Source: Bacteroidota bacterium
GTDB taxonomy: Bacteria > Bacteroidota > Ignavibacteria > UBA10030
DNA length: 64,000 bases
Assembly (NCBI GenBank): GCA_025454835.1
Contig: JALONQ010000013.1
Span: 1 to 64,000 of the forward strand
Direction of reading: 5' to 3'
Positions 25,972-54,167 of this stretch are shown here, in pieces. A program made the position numbers and the translations under genes. The notes beneath the pieces were generated by a model. It saw only the letters and a program-made list of their open reading frames with translations, searched no databases and was not told where the DNA came from. How positions within the stretch are numbered: position 1 is the first letter of the stretch; every line of letters begins with the position of its first letter.

Positions 25972-26006
25972 AGATGGTCTTATGAGGACGGTGAAGAACT
26001 AGGTAG

Positions 26007-26090
26007 AATGAATAGAGAATAGAGAATGGAGAATGGAGAATGGAGAATGGAGAATGGAGAATGGAGAATGGAGAATGGAGAATAGTGAAT
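26007..26090. repeat. tandem heptamer array (GGAGAAT)n
   Basis: Twelve consecutive heptamers: eight perfect GGAGAAT copies at 26028-26083, flanked by AATGAAT, two AGAGAAT and one AGTGAAT. It occupies the gap between era and the DUF1015 gene. The same heptamer occurs at 32935-32955, downstream of dacB. Confidence 0.97.
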
Positions 26091-26119
26091 CCTCAATAGG
26101 AAATCGGTGATAGAGAGCA

Positions 26120-38622: not shown

Positions 38623-38673
38623 GCGTTCATGAGGTGTCCAGAGAATTGGACACGGGAGGGGGAAAATCGTTTA

Positions 38674-38701
38674 AGGTTGAAGGTGAAGGGTGAAGGGTTA
38701 C
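38674..38701. repeat. short heptamer array (AGGTGAA-like)
   Basis: Four consecutive heptamers, AGGTTGA, AGGTGAA, GGGTGAA, GGGTTAC, ending exactly where the MITE-like element starts. The heptamer resembles the one in the 2.4-kb array. Confidence 0.75.
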
Positions 38702-38866
38702 TCGAAGCAGTCTCAAAAATCCAAATCTCACAGATTCAAGCATTACGCGCAGCGACCGCAGCGGAAGCAGTGCTCGCAGCGGTGAAAAGTCGGTAGTTAT
38801 CATTAACGTTGCGGCCGCCGCCACCGCCGCGAATGCCGCGCGAAACATTTTTGAGATGGCTTCTCG
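38702..38866. repeat. MITE-like element, copy 1 (about 165 bp)
   Basis: Termini are inverted: TCGAAGCAGTCTCAAAAAT at the left and, read on the minus strand, CGAGAAGCCATCTCAAAAAT at the right. Subterminal CGCAGCGACCGCAGCG faces GTTGCGGCCGCCG in opposite orientation. No coding potential. The right end (minus strand) matches the left end of the element at 49006 in about 22 of 26 positions. Fills, together with heptamer arrays on both sides, the 380-bp gap between the sigma gene and the C25 gene. Confidence 0.75.
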
Positions 38867-38990
38867 TTACTGATTACTGGTTACTGGTTACAGGTTGCAA
38901 GTTGCAGGTTACAGGCTACAGGTTACAGGTTGCAAGTTGCAGGTTACTGGTTACTGATTTCTGGCTACTGATTGCTGGTTTTTGGTTCCA
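38865..38990. repeat. tandem degenerate heptamer array (GGTTACN)18
   Basis: Eighteen heptamers in perfect 7-bp register, such as GATTACT, GGTTACT, GGTTACA, GGTTGCA, AGTTGCA and GGCTACA. Inside it, a five-heptamer block (GGTTACA, GGTTGCA, AGTTGCA, GGTTACA) recurs, so it grew by duplication of multi-heptamer units. It starts at the MITE-like right end and stops 13 bp before the C25 stop codon. Confidence 0.95.
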
Positions 38991-49262: not shown

Positions 49263-50207
49263 TTACAGTTTCAGTTTTCCCCTGAAATACCGTTCCGTCA
49301 GTTTCAGCCCTTCGGCCCGGCTCACGCTCGGTTCCCAGCCGAGGATGTTCTTGGCGCGGGTGATGTCGGGCTGGCGGACCTTTGGATCGTCCTGCGGCAA
49401 TGGGCGATAGACGATCTTGCTCTTGCTCTTCGCCAGCTCGACGATCTCCTCGGCCAGTTGGCGCATCGTCACTTCGTCAGGATTGCCGATATTAACGGGC
49501 AGAACCTCGTTGGACATCATGAGTCGAAAGATGCCATCGATCAGGTCCGTCACGTAGCAGACCGAGCGGGTCTGGCTGCCGTCGCCGAAGACGGTCACGT
49601 CCTCGTTCCGGAGCGCCTGGGTCATGAATGCCGGGATCGCCCGTCCGTCGACGAGGCGCATCCGCTCGCCGTACGTGTTGAAGATGCGGACGATGCGCGT
49701 CTCGACCTGGTGGTAGCGATGGTAGGCCATCGTCATCGCCTCGGCAAATCGTTTGGCCTCGTCGTACACGCCGCGCGGTCCGACGGGATTGACATTGCCC
49801 CAGTACGACTCGGGCTGCGGGTGGACGAGCGGATCGCCGTAGGTCTCGGACGTCGACGCGAGCAAGTACCGGGCGTTCTTGGCCTTCGCGAGGCCGAGCG
49901 TCTTGTGCGTACCGAGACTGCCGACCTTGAGCGTTTGGATCGGATACTTGAGATAGTCGAGCGGGCTGGCGGGCGACGCGAAATGCCACACGAAGTCGAC
50001 GTGCCCTTCGACCGTCACGTAGTTCGTGACGTCATACTGGACGAACGTGAACCGCTGGTTCCCCAGCAGATGCACGATGTTATCAGCACTTCCGGTGATG
50101 AGGTTATCGATGCAGATGACCCGATGTCCTTCGGCCAAGAGGCGATCACAAAGGTTCGAGCCCAGAAAACCGGCGCCACCGGTTACGACGGAGACTGGAG
50201 AGGTCAT
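49263..50207 (-). CDS. UDP-glucuronate decarboxylase (UDP-xylose synthase)
   Basis: 314 residues, extended SDR fold. Rossmann [18 protein letters not shown], the UXS-typical [20 protein letters not shown], catalytic Ser/Thr region [18 protein letters not shown], catalytic [10 protein letters not shown] (YxxxK), and [11 protein letters not shown]. Converts UDP-glucuronic acid to UDP-xylose, needed for xylose-containing surface glycans. UDP-glucose dehydrogenase at 50724-52031 supplies its substrate, so the two form a two-step UDP-xylose branch. A heptamer array lies 7-41 nt upstream of its ATG, and its stop touches another repeat. Confidence 0.94.
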
Positions 50208-50213
50208 CGAAAA

Positions 50214-50248
50214 GTTAAGAGTAGGGAGAAATGAGTATGGAGAGAATT
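50214..50248. repeat. left heptamer array of cassette A (GAGTAGG-type)
   Basis: Five heptamers in register, readable as GAGTAGG, GAGAAAT, GAGTATG, GAGAGAA from 50219. They face the array at 50696-50730 in inverted orientation, with the four-helix-bundle gene between. Confidence 0.85.
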
Positions 50249-50260
50249 GCGCGTGCTTGG

Positions 50261-50650
50261 CTACTCAGGCGGTTGTTGGCGGGTCGAGAATCTCTCAGGA
50301 TGAGCCATCATTCCGCTGAGCATTCGCTGCAATTCCTCATATCGTTCGATGAAGTAGCGGTGTTTTTCACCCAATACGTAACCACAATCTAACGACATAT
50401 CGAGAGAGACCTCTGTTTCGTCAGCTTCTGCCGACGAATCCACGAGCTTGTTGAAAAAGGCCTTCGGATACACCCTTCTCCGCCAGGCCTCTGCAATGTT
50501 GCGTGGAACTGACCGTGAAGACTTGCGGATCTGAGCCGTCAGGTCGTAACGCTCTTCTTTCGGAAACGACTTGGTTTCGTTGAAGATCTCCAATGCAAGC
50601 TGGTAAGCCAATTGGTAGACCTTCAGGTCCCTGAATCCTCGGTACGCCAT
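50261..50650 (-). CDS. four-helix-bundle protein (S23/IVS-encoded family), cassette A
   Basis: 129 residues, almost entirely helical. Family signposts: [50 protein letters not shown] and a final helix [16 protein letters not shown]. The family was named from proteins encoded in intervening sequences of 23S rRNA in Leptospira and Coxiella, and relatives include the Avd accessory of diversity-generating retroelements. No reverse transcriptase, variable repeat or rRNA is near here. A GGGAGG ribosome site precedes the ATG. Flanked by inverted heptamer arrays (50214-50248 and 50696-50730), and placed between two functionally linked genes (uxs and ugd), so it looks like an inserted cassette. Function unknown; perhaps nucleic-acid binding. 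Confidence 0.93.
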
Positions 50651-50695
50651 TCCCCCCTCCCTTGTTAAGCGAAAGCCGCGGATCCGAACACCTTC

Positions 50696-50730
50696 TTTCT
50701 CCCTACTCCCTTCTCCTTACTCCCTACTCG
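50696..50730. repeat. right heptamer array of cassette A
   Basis: TTTCTCC, CTACTCC, CTTCTCC, TTACTCC, CTACTCG in register. Read on the minus strand they give GAGTAGG, GAGTAAG, GAGAAGG, GAGTAGG, GAGAAAG, an inverted match to 50214-50248. The stop codon of ugd (50724-50726) is inside the last heptamer. Confidence 0.9.
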
Positions 50731-52031
50731 GAGCTCCTCCCGATCCCATAGTACGTAAATCCCAGCGCCTTCATCTCTTTCGGGTCGTAGATGTTTCGGC
50801 CGTCGAAGATGACCGGTTTCTTCAACTGGGCCTTGATCGTCTTGAAATCGGGGGTGCGGAACTCATTCCATTCCGTGACGATCACAAGGGCATCGGCTCC
50901 CTTGAGGGCCTCCATCGCCTTGTCAACATACTCGATCCTGTTGTGGAAGATCGACCGTGCGCGTGTCATGGCGATGGGGTCGTGCGCACGCACTTTGGCC
51001 CCCATCTCCAGCAGGCCGTTCACGATCGGGATCGACGGGGCTTCGCGCATATCGTCGGTCTGTGGCTTGAAGGCCAGCCCCCAGACGGCGAAGGTCTTGC
51101 CTTGCAGCGACTTGCCAAAATGCTTGGCTACTTTCCAGAGCAGCACGCGCTTCTGACGTTCATTGACGTCGTCGACGGCACGCAGGATCTTGAACTCGAA
51201 CTCGTGTTCGTGGGCCGTTTTGACGAGCGCCTTGACGTCCTTCGGGAAGCACGAGCCGCCGTAGCCGACGCCGGAGAACAGGAAGAGCTGCCCCACCCGG
51301 GGGTCGCTTCCGATCCCACGCCGCACGGCGTCAATGTCAGCCCCCGTCTTCTCGCACAGATTGGCCAGCTCGTTCATGAACGAGATCTTCGTGGCCAGAA
51401 AGGCATTTGCCGCATACTTCGTCATCTCCGCGCTGCGTTCATCCATCACCAGCACCGGATTGCCCGTCCTGACGAACGGAGCGTAGAGTTCCGTCATCAC
51501 TTGCGCGGCCCGCTTGCTCCGCGTGCCGATCACGATCCGGTCGGGCTTGAGGGAGTCCTGGACCGCCGCTCCCTCCTTCAGAAATTCCGGGTTCGACACG
51601 ACATCGACCCCCGTCTTCCCCTTCTTGCGCATGATCGAGCGGATCTTGTCGACCGTGCCGACCGGAACGGTGCTCTTCGAGACCACGATCTTCTCGCCAA
51701 CGATGAGGTCGGCGATGTCCTCCGAGACCTTCATGACATGGGTGAGATCGGCCGATCCGTCCTCCGACTGCGGGGTCGGCAGACAGAGGAAGATCACGTC
51801 GGACCGTTCGACTGCCGACTTCAGGTTCGTCGTAAACTCCAACCGTTTGTCTTCGACATTTCGCAGGACCATCTCTTCGAGGCCCGGTTCGTAGATCGGG
51901 ATCTGCCCCTTGCGCAGGGAGGCGATCTTCTTTTCGTCGATGTCCATGCACAGGACCTGATTGCCCGTGTCGGCGAAGACAGCGCCCTGGACAAGGCCGA
52001 CGTAGCCGGTTCCGATGATGGAGATTTTCAT
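50724..52031 (-). CDS. ugd: UDP-glucose 6-dehydrogenase
   Basis: 435 residues, full length. Oxidises UDP-glucose to UDP-glucuronate with two NAD. GTGYVGLVQGAVFADTGNQV (NAD fold), LCLPTPQSEDGSADL, KSTVPVGT, NPEFLKEGAAV, catalytic-Cys segment FSGVGYGGSCFPKDV (the Cys), then GLAFKPQTDDMREAPS and the C-terminal NIYDPKEMKALGF. Provides substrate for the UXS enzyme downstream. It is flanked by repeat arrays: one about 39 nt upstream of its ATG (52070-52104) and one covering its stop (50724-50730). Confidence 0.96.
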   Translation of the reverse strand: MKISIIGTGYVGLVQGAVFADTGNQVLCMDIDEKKIASLRKGQIPIYEPGLEEMVLRNVEDKRLEFTTNLKSAVERSDVIFLCLPTPQSEDGSADLTHVMKVSEDIADLIVGEKIVVSKSTVPVGTVDKIRSIMRKKGKTGVDVVSNPEFLKEGAAVQDSLKPDRIVIGTRSKRAAQVMTELYAPFVRTGNPVLVMDERSAEMTKYAANAFLATKISFMNELANLCEKTGADIDAVRRGIGSDPRVGQLFLFSGVGYGGSCFPKDVKALVKTAHEHEFEFKILRAVDDVNERQKRVLLWKVAKHFGKSLQGKTFAVWGLAFKPQTDDMREAPSIPIVNGLLEMGAKVRAHDPIAMTRARSIFHNRIEYVDKAMEALKGADALVIVTEWNEFRTPDFKTIKAQLKKPVIFDGRNIYDPKEMKALGFTYYGIGRSSE

Positions 52032-52069: not shown

Positions 52070-52104
52070 GTGAGACGTGAAATGTGAAAAGTGGGACGTG
52101 AAAG
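52070..52104. repeat. left heptamer array of cassette B (GTGANNN-type)
   Basis: GTGAGAC, GTGAAAT, GTGAAAA, GTGGGAC, GTGAAAG in perfect register. Their inverted counterparts lie at 52607-52634, on the other side of the second four-helix-bundle gene. Confidence 0.9.
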
Positions 52105-52205
52105 CGCCATGAAAATACCCAAAAAACCGCTCATAGGCACGCCCAAATCCGTTCAAGGAATCGGGCTGCGGCGGTTCTCTGTCATTTCTGCCGTTTCAGC
52201 GCAGG

Positions 52206-52577
52206 TCATCTTATTGAGCGGATCAATCCGCTGAGAAGTTGCTCGACCGAGGTCATGTTCTCGTCGATCTCCAATGTTTGCTGCTCGCTTATGTATCCAA
52301 GCATGGCAGACACTTCCACCTGTGCATCGAGCTCACTGAGCGATGCTCTGACAATATTGAGGAATCGGAGCTTGTCACCTTTCGTTGCACGAGTAAGTCC
52401 TTCTGCGATGTTGGATGGCACAGAGATCACAGCTCTACGCATTTGAGCATTTAGTCCGAAGTCCTCCTCTCGCGGTAAGTCTTTGACCACCCGGTAGATC
52501 AGCATTACGAGCTCGAGGGATTTCTTCCAAAGAATGAGTTTCTTGTGGGGCTTGTCAGCCCGGCTGTTACCCATGCT
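52206..52577 (-). CDS. four-helix-bundle protein (S23/IVS-encoded family), cassette B
   Basis: 123 residues from the ATG at 52577, which has a strong AAGGAGG ribosome site; an upstream in-frame ATG at 52613 lies in the repeat array and is less likely. Family motifs: KLILWKKSLELVMLIYRVVK, LPREEDFGLNAQMRRA, VISVPSNIAEGL and a closing TSVEQLLSGLIRSIR helix. Distantly related to the cassette A protein (shared VPxNIAE core). No DGR components or rRNA nearby. It lies between ugd and the initiating phosphoglycosyltransferase and is bracketed by inverted heptamer arrays whose heptamer differs from that of cassette A. Function unknown. Confidence 0.93.
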   Translation of the reverse strand, partial: SMGNSRADKPHKKLILWKKSLELVMLIYRVVKDLPREEDFGLNAQMRRAVISVPSNIAEGLTRATKGDKLRFLNIVRASLSELDAQVEVSAMLGYISEQQTLEIDENMTSVEQLLSGLIRSIR

Positions 52578-52606
52578 CCCCTCCTTCGGCAGGTATTCCT
52601 TGCAAC

Positions 52607-52634
52607 GTTTCACATCTTACATCTCACTTCTCAC
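52607..52634. repeat. right heptamer array of cassette B
   Basis: GTTTCAC, ATCTTAC, ATCTCAC, TTCTCAC in register. On the minus strand they read GTGAGAA, GTGAGAT, GTAAGAT, GTGAAAC, an inverted match to 52070-52104. It lies about 30 nt upstream of the gene start. Confidence 0.9.
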
Positions 52635-52661: not shown

Positions 52662-54167
52662 TCAATACGCTCCCTTCCCGAACAGCACCACGGGGATCGT
52701 GGCGAACAGGATCTCCAGGTCGAACAGCAACGAGTGGTTCTCAACGTAGTAGAGGTCGAGCATGACCATCTCCTTGAACCCGATGCTGCTGCGTCCGGAG
52801 ATCTGCCACAGTCCCGTCATGCCAGGCTTGATCTTGTCGCGGTCCTTGATCGACGACCAGAATTCCTCACCTTCCTTCACCAGCTCAAAGTCCTCGACCG
52901 GAAGCGGTCGCGGCCCGACGAGGCTCATGTCGCCCTTGAGCACGTTGAGAAGTTGCGGCAGCTCGTCGATGCTGTACCGTCGGATGAACCGCCCCACGCG
53001 GGTGATGCGCGGGTCCGCGCGCATCTTGAAGAGCGCACCGTCGGACTCGTTGTGCTGGCGCAGGTCCGCCTTGAGCGCATCGGCGTTCTTGACCATGCTC
53101 CGGAACTTCAGGAACCCGAACGTCTTACCACCACGAAGAGCGGCGCGCGTCTGGGTGAAGAAGATCGGCCGGCCCGAATCGAGCAGGATCAACAGCGATG
53201 TCAGGAAGAACACCGGCGACAGCAGGAGGAGGATCATGGCCGAGCCGACGATGTCGAATGTGCGCTTGCCGACGTGATGGACCGCTTCGACACGGGTGCG
53301 GGGCGGCGCGTAGAGCGTGATGCCCGCAATGTCGTACACACGCGCCAAACGCAGGAGGGCATCGTGCTCGATCGACAGGACCTTCAGCTTCACGTCCTTC
53401 TCACGGCAGACCCTGAGGACGGCGGCAAATCCGTTCGTCAGGACCGAAGGCGTTGGGACAAAGATGCGCTCGATACGCTGTTCGACAACGGCCGATTCGA
53501 GCTCCTTCAGGCTGTAGAGCGGCAGTCCGCGAAGCTTCGACCGATCGTCTTCGGTGATCTCGGACCTGGTCCTGGTGACGATCCCGCGAACGTCGTATCC
53601 CAGCTCGGGCACTCCTTCGAACCGGTCCAGCAGTTCCTCCACCTCGCCGTCGTATCCTGCGAGCAGTACGGGCCTTCTCCCCAATCCACGGCGTTGCAGC
53701 TGCTCATGGGCGGCGTTCAGCGCGGCGCGGCCGATGACGAAGAAGCCGGGCAACGCCATGAAGAACAGCAGGGCAAACCGTCTGGGGAACTCCGAGACCT
53801 GGAACAGAAAGAACGAGGCCAGAACGACCAGGAGCGCTACGACATAAGCGCGCGAGGCGAGCAGGTACTGCTTGCGATGGCTCAGGTGGAAGGCGCCGCG
53901 ATAGAGGCCGATGAGCAGGCCAAAGCCGACCATGACCGTCCCGAAGTAGACGGAGAAGGCCACGAGCAAGGCGGTCGAAAATCGCTCTCCGTTCGGGACG
54001 AGGGCATGGAGCCACCCGGCCGCGAGAGAGGCCCCGAGAATCGCCAGCGCATCTGCGAGGATCGTCAGAACGATGAAGATCGAGCGCCAGTTGCGTCGAA
54101 TGGACGACCGCAACCAAGCCAGCAATCCGAAGTGGTCGGCGTATCTCAGAGATCTAGCCCGGAACAT
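52662..54167 (-). CDS. exopolysaccharide polyprenyl-phosphate hexose-1-phosphotransferase (WbaP/WcaJ type)
   Basis: 501 residues. Four or five N-terminal membrane helices (about 30-150, for example SIFIVLTILADALAILGASL), a CoA-binding-like middle domain (about 165-280: RRPVLLAGYDGEVEELLDRF), one more hydrophobic hairpin (FDIVGSAMILLLLSPVFFLT) and the catalytic PglC-like domain: KFRSMVKNAD, RVGRFIRRYSIDELPQLLNVLKGD (D-E motif), SLVGPRPLP, KPGMTGLWQISGRS. Attaches the first sugar-1-phosphate to undecaprenyl phosphate, starting glycan repeat-unit synthesis. Its start is preceded by a 580-bp gene-free region rich in palindromes. Confidence 0.95.
   Translation of the reverse strand: MFRARSLRYADHFGLLAWLRSSIRRNWRSIFIVLTILADALAILGASLAAGWLHALVPNGERFSTALLVAFSVYFGTVMVGFGLLIGLYRGAFHLSHRKQYLLASRAYVVALLVVLASFFLFQVSEFPRRFALLFFMALPGFFVIGRAALNAAHEQLQRRGLGRRPVLLAGYDGEVEELLDRFEGVPELGYDVRGIVTRTRSEITEDDRSKLRGLPLYSLKELESAVVEQRIERIFVPTPSVLTNGFAAVLRVCREKDVKLKVLSIEHDALLRLARVYDIAGITLYAPPRTRVEAVHHVGKRTFDIVGSAMILLLLSPVFFLTSLLILLDSGRPIFFTQTRAALRGGKTFGFLKFRSMVKNADALKADLRQHNESDGALFKMRADPRITRVGRFIRRYSIDELPQLLNVLKGDMSLVGPRPLPVEDFELVKEGEEFWSSIKDRDKIKPGMTGLWQISGRSSIGFKEMVMLDLYYVENHSLLFDLEILFATIPVVLFGKGAY

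Follow-up and report, generated by a model that had tools for sequence, protein, structure and literature searches.

In a 64,000-nucleotide stretch of contig JALONQ010000013.1 (assembly GCA_025454835.1; called the window here) from a Bacteroidota bacterium of the UBA10030 lineage of Ignavibacteria, two genes of the S23/IVP protein family each lie between a pair of inverted arrays of tandem heptamers, and each of these cassettes, A and B, has a repeat word of its own. The match between the two arms of one cassette is real, general and far beyond chance. What keeps the arms alike is probably a word-specific reader, the S23 protein, in place of a homogenising mechanism. From comparisons of sequence across genomes we consider it probable that cassette B is a copy of a mobile element resembling the intervening sequences (IVSs) of rRNA genes, that its protein recognises its own repeat word, and that gene-less arrays elsewhere in the genome are derivatives of such elements.

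The first-pass annotation of the window had described an S23-family gene between inverted heptamer arrays at 52070-52634, and both parts of that description hold. The protein has 122 amino acids when read from the ATG at 52574 (the mechanical open reading frame reaches a GTG at 52613), matches PF05635 at 111.7 bits against a cut-off of 33.8 and covers positions 1-106 of the 106 in the profile; its matches in PDB are 2gsc (XCC0516 of Xanthomonas campestris, E 4e-28) and 2rld (E 2e-6). XCC0516 is a homopentamer of four-helix bundles (PMC4990558). At E<=0.001 the only Pfam matches of the protein are PF05635 and a weak one to bAvd (PF22296). The inverted 30-mers that enclose the S23 frame are 77% complementary, making a stem possible, and each arm is periodic at lag 7 (p ~0.001). 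The two arms score 16.5 against each other, a value that 0.1% of Markov shuffles (p = 0.001) and 1.3% of similarly spaced random segments of the window (p = 0.013) attain, and the downstream arms of four other cassettes score equally high against the upstream arm of B. Cassette B thus illustrates only modestly a rule that is strong in general. The two arms of cassette A also match each other (p = 0.0045 and 0.0085), and its GGGAGTA-type word is unlike the GTGAGAN-type word of B, just as had been remarked of two cassettes whose heptamers differ and yet agree, left with right, within B.

The rule emerges from a wider collection. There are 15 PF05635 genes in the source genome and at least one in 39 of the 41 genomes searched; the source genome and its relatives yielded 106 cassettes, 103 of them scorable by comparing the upstream arm with the reverse complement of the downstream arm. 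This comparison of arm similarity within and between cassettes, which the annotation had proposed as a check, gave median scores of 19.5 for self and 10.5 for between-cassette pairs, and a cassette's own arm ranked first among the 103 in 45 cases and fifth or better in 85. The same pattern appeared in 78 named homologues belonging to B's subfamily and spread over many phyla (self 19.5 vs between 10.0). Period 7 dominates on both flanks and period 8 is a minority, and the two arms agree: the cassettes with a clear period are 7/7 in 40 cases, 8/8 in 8 and mixed in 0.

The annotation had attributed the match to copying or correction of the arms as a pair, and in its general form this explanation holds that inversion or fold-back repair homogenises both arrays whatever their sequence. 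It would account for the match itself, and the heptad variants do show a slight colinearity. The heptads themselves give that claim little support: they are as alike within one arm as between opposite arms (similarity 0.692 vs 0.674), and their order is scarcely mirrored (5.16 vs 4.98 of 7; individually significant in 7% of cassettes). The arms share something else: the heptad positions that vary are common to both arms in register (r = 0.53-0.58), and registers other than the true one give -0.26 to -0.03 against 0.58. Between cassettes with similar words the same correlation is 0.07-0.12, and it is 0.12 for pairs matching at 6/7 positions or more, so the shared variable positions are not an artefact of matching the words. 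Shared degenerate positions are the trace expected of a recognition consensus, unlike the trace of copying.

The word also follows the protein. For this comparison we defined arms by self-match alone, took pairs from different genomes and made 2000 permutations. Among pairs with at least 60% protein identity the word similarity was 11.25, against 6.46 +/- 0.34 when permuted (the maximum of 2000 being 7.96), and across genomes it rose with protein identity from 6.2 at 10-30% to 10.4 at 60-70% and 14.2 at 70-90%. In the similar pairs (at least 55% protein identity) identity at four-fold sites was 0.31, which is saturated, and paired copying leaves unexplained how related proteins in different genomes share words at such divergence. 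Cassette B takes part in this pattern, with homologues in other genomes that are 58%, 47% and 44% identical and carry GTGAGAN-type arms; its word recurs in related cassettes of three relatives (G004, G022 and G016).

Resident words appear away from S23 genes as well. In 936 kb of the source genome there are 50 period-7 arrays, most of them without an S23 gene, at a threshold that yielded 0 for periods 4, 5, 8 and 11. At a slightly looser threshold we took 41 solo arrays, of which 21 match the word of a resident cassette at p<0.05 (Wilcoxon 8e-7 against random foreign sets). In a relative with 11 S23 genes (G031) the density per Mb was 78 for period-7 and 16 for period-8 arrays, the 8-bp arrays matching the 8-bp cassettes. 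A member of the same family that has no S23 gene (G036) has 0 arrays in 400 kb, where genomes rich in S23 have 78 and 38 per Mb, which is suggestive of a link to S23. Paired copying leaves the solo arrays with resident words unexplained too, and we judge it very unlikely indeed. The annotation had further suggested a mechanism that responds to a 7-bp period whatever the fixed sequence; with 8-bp cassettes in existence, words that follow proteins and solo arrays that use resident words, this idea finds no support. A sequence-specific reader, most economically the S23 protein that the cassette encodes, explains all five points that speak against paired copying, namely the likeness and order of the heptads, the shared variable positions, the link of word to protein, the concordance of 7- and 8-bp periods, and the solo arrays with resident words.

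This dispersal recalls the REPtrons, in which a gene is flanked by inverted cognate short repeats (repetitive extragenic palindromes, REPs) that are also dispersed without the gene, as the S23 cognate repeats are. In those systems the repeats are hairpins and the gene encodes a Y1 transposase, the REP-associated tyrosine transposase (RAYT). The S23 cassettes differ from them in containing no Y1 transposase and in having 7/8-bp direct arrays as repeats. We considered a Y1 transposase as the carrier of the heptamers and rejected it, the Y1 loci here carrying REP-type hairpins.

A different account of the arms is an RNA stem of the kind known from rRNA IVSs: the arms would be kept complementary so that a long stem can enclose the S23 frame, for cleavage by RNase III or for insulation within the operon mRNA, and the word would not be read by a protein. 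RNA duplexes between the two arms of one cassette are indeed much more stable than those between arms of different cassettes (-34.3 vs -11.1 kcal/mol, in 89/89), and the cassettes mostly lie co-directionally in operons, both neighbouring genes being co-directional with the cassette in 79/96. RNase III excises the IVS of the Coxiella 23S rRNA, in which tandem GACAGAT heptamers lie upstream of the S23 frame (PMC4990558). Pairing, however, requires neither shared degenerate positions nor a 7/8 period, and the same words occur in solo arrays that have no partner and correlate with proteins. Nor did the mismatches between arms show an excess of G-U compatible changes (119 vs 144, p=0.14), and RNA pairing as the sole constraint was set aside as unsupported by this wobble test. 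We regard the RNA stem as unlikely, and lean instead, with some reserve, to the view that the repeat itself is what is recognised, most simply as DNA.

If the S23 protein is a reader of its word, it could also be an autoregulator or a nucleoid-type protein, with the heptamer arrays as its operators and the solo arrays as its regulon, in cassettes that are not primarily mobile. The cassette arrays adjoin start and stop codons, and both the word-protein correlation and the resident words in solo arrays would be expected of such a regulator. Occupancy of the insertion sites speaks for mobility. Cassette B lies in the spacer between a sugar transferase gene and a UGD gene, co-directional with both and not inside an rRNA gene, and cassette A in the next spacer, between UGD and an epimerase gene. 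The UGD-epimerase spacer measures 516 bp in the window and 14 bp and 51 bp in two relatives that have neither cassette (G027 and G034). A genome of another family (G033) has the A-type cassette only, 52% identical and with GGAGTAA arms. One relative (G014) has a B-type gene at the same operon position (49% identical), with GTGAGATGTGAGAAG in its downstream arm, and has in addition two tandem A-type S23 genes, one of them truncated (L394 2033-2619); in another (G006) the position of A is occupied by a B-type gene. The metK-ahcY spacer is an insertion hot spot: in some relatives (L186-L215) it is empty (24-52 bp), and in others it contains a single array, an array pair with no gene, or an S23 cassette; in one genome (G013) it has an S23-like gene apparently of a different subfamily. 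In two S23 genes that are 87% identical and stand at unrelated loci, homology starts at the array. Operon spacers that are sporadically occupied and empty in relatives have the look of a mobile element, and the presence of an apparently different subfamily in the same metK-ahcY spacer, the gene-less array pairs and the multi-copy expansion point the same way; a purely regulatory role is, in our estimate, very unlikely. In a further genome (G030) S23 cassettes with AGGGTNTAGGG arms (L121 and L125) stand within an apparent DNA-methylase reading frame, which is possibly an IVS-like insertion into a coding gene.

We therefore return to a mobile element that reads its own word, and its operation may be pictured as follows. 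The element would consist of the gene for a small four-helix-bundle S23/IVP protein and, on either side of it, inverted arrays of a word of 7 or 8 bp. That word, a consensus with degenerate positions, would be recognised by the protein; selection would hold both arms to the consensus, and word and protein would change together. The arrays would serve as the ends of the element, copies of which would insert into the short intergenic spacers of operons, and gene-less derivatives, either single arrays or array pairs, would be left behind or spread elsewhere in the genome by the logic of REP and RAYT. From the sequence patterns we infer that the word is physically recognised and that the S23 protein is its reader. 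With no catalytic domain known in the S23/IVP family and 0 matches to reverse transcriptase (PF00078) in the source genome, the element would have to rely on some other enzyme to move; repeat addition templated by reverse transcriptase was rejected for the source genome, no such enzyme being found.

Several observations weigh against this picture. Some close pairs of proteins (64-66% identity) have different words, so that recognition must be switchable, and below 45% identity word and protein are almost uncorrelated; part of the correlation could come from cassettes being inherited whole, with arms that change unusually slowly. Of the solo arrays, about half in the source genome (G000) and 25/36 in G031 have no significant match to a sampled resident cassette, and the absence of arrays in the S23-less relative concerns a single genome. 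A Pfam scan recognised no transposase or other gene within the cassette unit, and the spacers that we compared are too diverged to define a target-site duplication.

The coordinates of both cassettes, of the operon that hosts them and of the solo arrays in the window are collected in the table.

Table. Positions in the window of cassettes A and B, the genes of their host operon and solo heptamer arrays.
Feature	Position	Strand	Remarks
Cassette B gene, S23 / 23S_rRNA_IVP	52206..52574	-	PF05635 111.7 bits; PDB homologue 2gsc, E 4e-28
Cassette B arm upstream of gene	52605..52634	-	gene sense GTGAGAA GTGAGAT GTAAGAT GTGAAAC GT
Cassette B arm downstream of gene	52070..52103	+	+ strand, inverted relative to gene: GTGAGAC GTGAAAT GTGAAAA GTGGGAC GTGAAAG
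Cassette A gene, S23 / IVP	50261..50650	-	PF05635 100.3 bits
Cassette A upstream arm	50692..50729	-	word GGGAGTA / GGAGTAA
Cassette A downstream arm	50219..50243	+	GAGTAGGGAGAAATGAGTATGGAGA on + strand
Sugar transferase (Bac_transf), host operon gene upstream of B	52662..54167	-	Pfam
UDP-glucose/GDP-mannose dehydrogenase (UGD), host operon gene separating cassettes B and A	50724..52031	-	Pfam
NAD-dependent epimerase, host operon gene downstream of A	49263..50207	-	Pfam
Solo array (GAATGGA)n, no gene	26000..26099	+	word as in resident S23 cassettes C13:54607 and C5:17719, on other contigs
Solo array (GTTACAG/GTTACTG)n, no gene	38856..38985	+	word matches S23 cassette at C5:15711, on another contig
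Solo heptamer array, no gene	38666-38700		seen in window

In their parts and their logic the cassettes resemble both the rRNA IVSs and the REP/RAYT systems, but by definition they are neither. With the 23S rRNA IVSs of Leptospira, Coxiella and Salmonella they share a PF05635/S23p protein, flanking inverted repeats and a sporadic distribution; unlike these, they lie in the spacers of protein genes, occur many to a genome, have each a word of their own and are accompanied by solo arrays. With a classical transposon that has terminal inverted repeats they share the inversion of their ends and insertion sites that are empty in relatives, and they differ from it in having no transposase of their own recognised in the unit. 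The weak PF22296 match reflects a four-helix-bundle fold homologous to that of Avd and bAvd of the diversity-generating retroelements, and here the difference is that no reverse transcriptase was found in the source genome. A further set of loci in relatives (L216-L245) has GxxExxY (PDDEXK_3) genes of PF13366, likewise between matched inverted arrays of short repeats (self 20.2 vs between 11.0), with cassette-specific words, cores such as CACGAAG, CACAGAG and CGCAAAG, and spacers of 1-3 nt; it is a parallel system with a nuclease-fold protein.

Arrays of heptamers described with no protein partner have a literature of their own. A study of X. campestris described 186 GGGAATC/(GGGANTN) arrays, many of them convergent pairs, for which no cause was given, and similar GGGGA(C/T)T arrays are found in Nostoc (PMC4692102); TAACTGA heptamer repeats are described in Beggiatoaceae (PMC4679880). 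Like the arrays described here, these and the short tandemly repeated repetitive (STRR) sequences of cyanobacteria are intergenic, have period 7 and partly degenerate units, and occur singly or as convergent pairs; unlike the S23 cassettes, the repeats are presented in those papers with no protein partner, and "S23" is absent from the main texts of PMC4692102 and PMC4679880. We found no prior link of S23 genes with heptamer arrays in the open-access literature searched, which leaves out most subscription papers. Arms of the GGGAATC type surround S23 genes of X. vasicola, Luteimonas and Rhodanobacter, positioned between apparent accB and accC genes, and the X. vasicola protein is ~88% identical to XCC0516 over 89 residues. 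The published Xanthomonas heptamer GGGAATC is thus the word that flanks a close homologue of the protein of solved structure (2gsc). Elsewhere, plasmid pNe_5 of Nostoc edaphicum (L346) has a GGGAGTA-armed S23 gene between nrdB and nrdA, on the strand opposite to both. In two other cyanobacterial plasmids, pANA02 of Anabaena sp. 90 (L353) and pPg_01 of Pseudanabaena (L350), S23 genes with different words stand between cas6 and cas4 of CRISPR loci.

Reports of heptamer arrays go back to about 1990 and give no cause, and ever since S23/IVP proteins were discovered in rRNA IVSs their function has been described as uncharacterised. S23/IVP cassettes with cognate words may explain the arrays. More broadly, and with appreciable reservation, we propose that S23/IVP may be a family of evolvable specificity, each member reading its own 7- or 8-nt word, and that with its cognate inverted arrays it could constitute a widespread selfish element of bacteria, of which the STRR heptamer arrays of cyanobacteria, xanthomonads and others would be gene-less derivatives and the rRNA IVSs a special case. 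Should the recognition prove real, S23/IVP would amount to a natural family of binding proteins specific to words. Its specificities, in the hundreds, would be self-labelled, because each gene is flanked by the word that is recognised, and a recognition code could be learned from them. Linking the protein to its own word would then offer one testable answer to two problems, the function of S23 and the origin of heptamer arrays.
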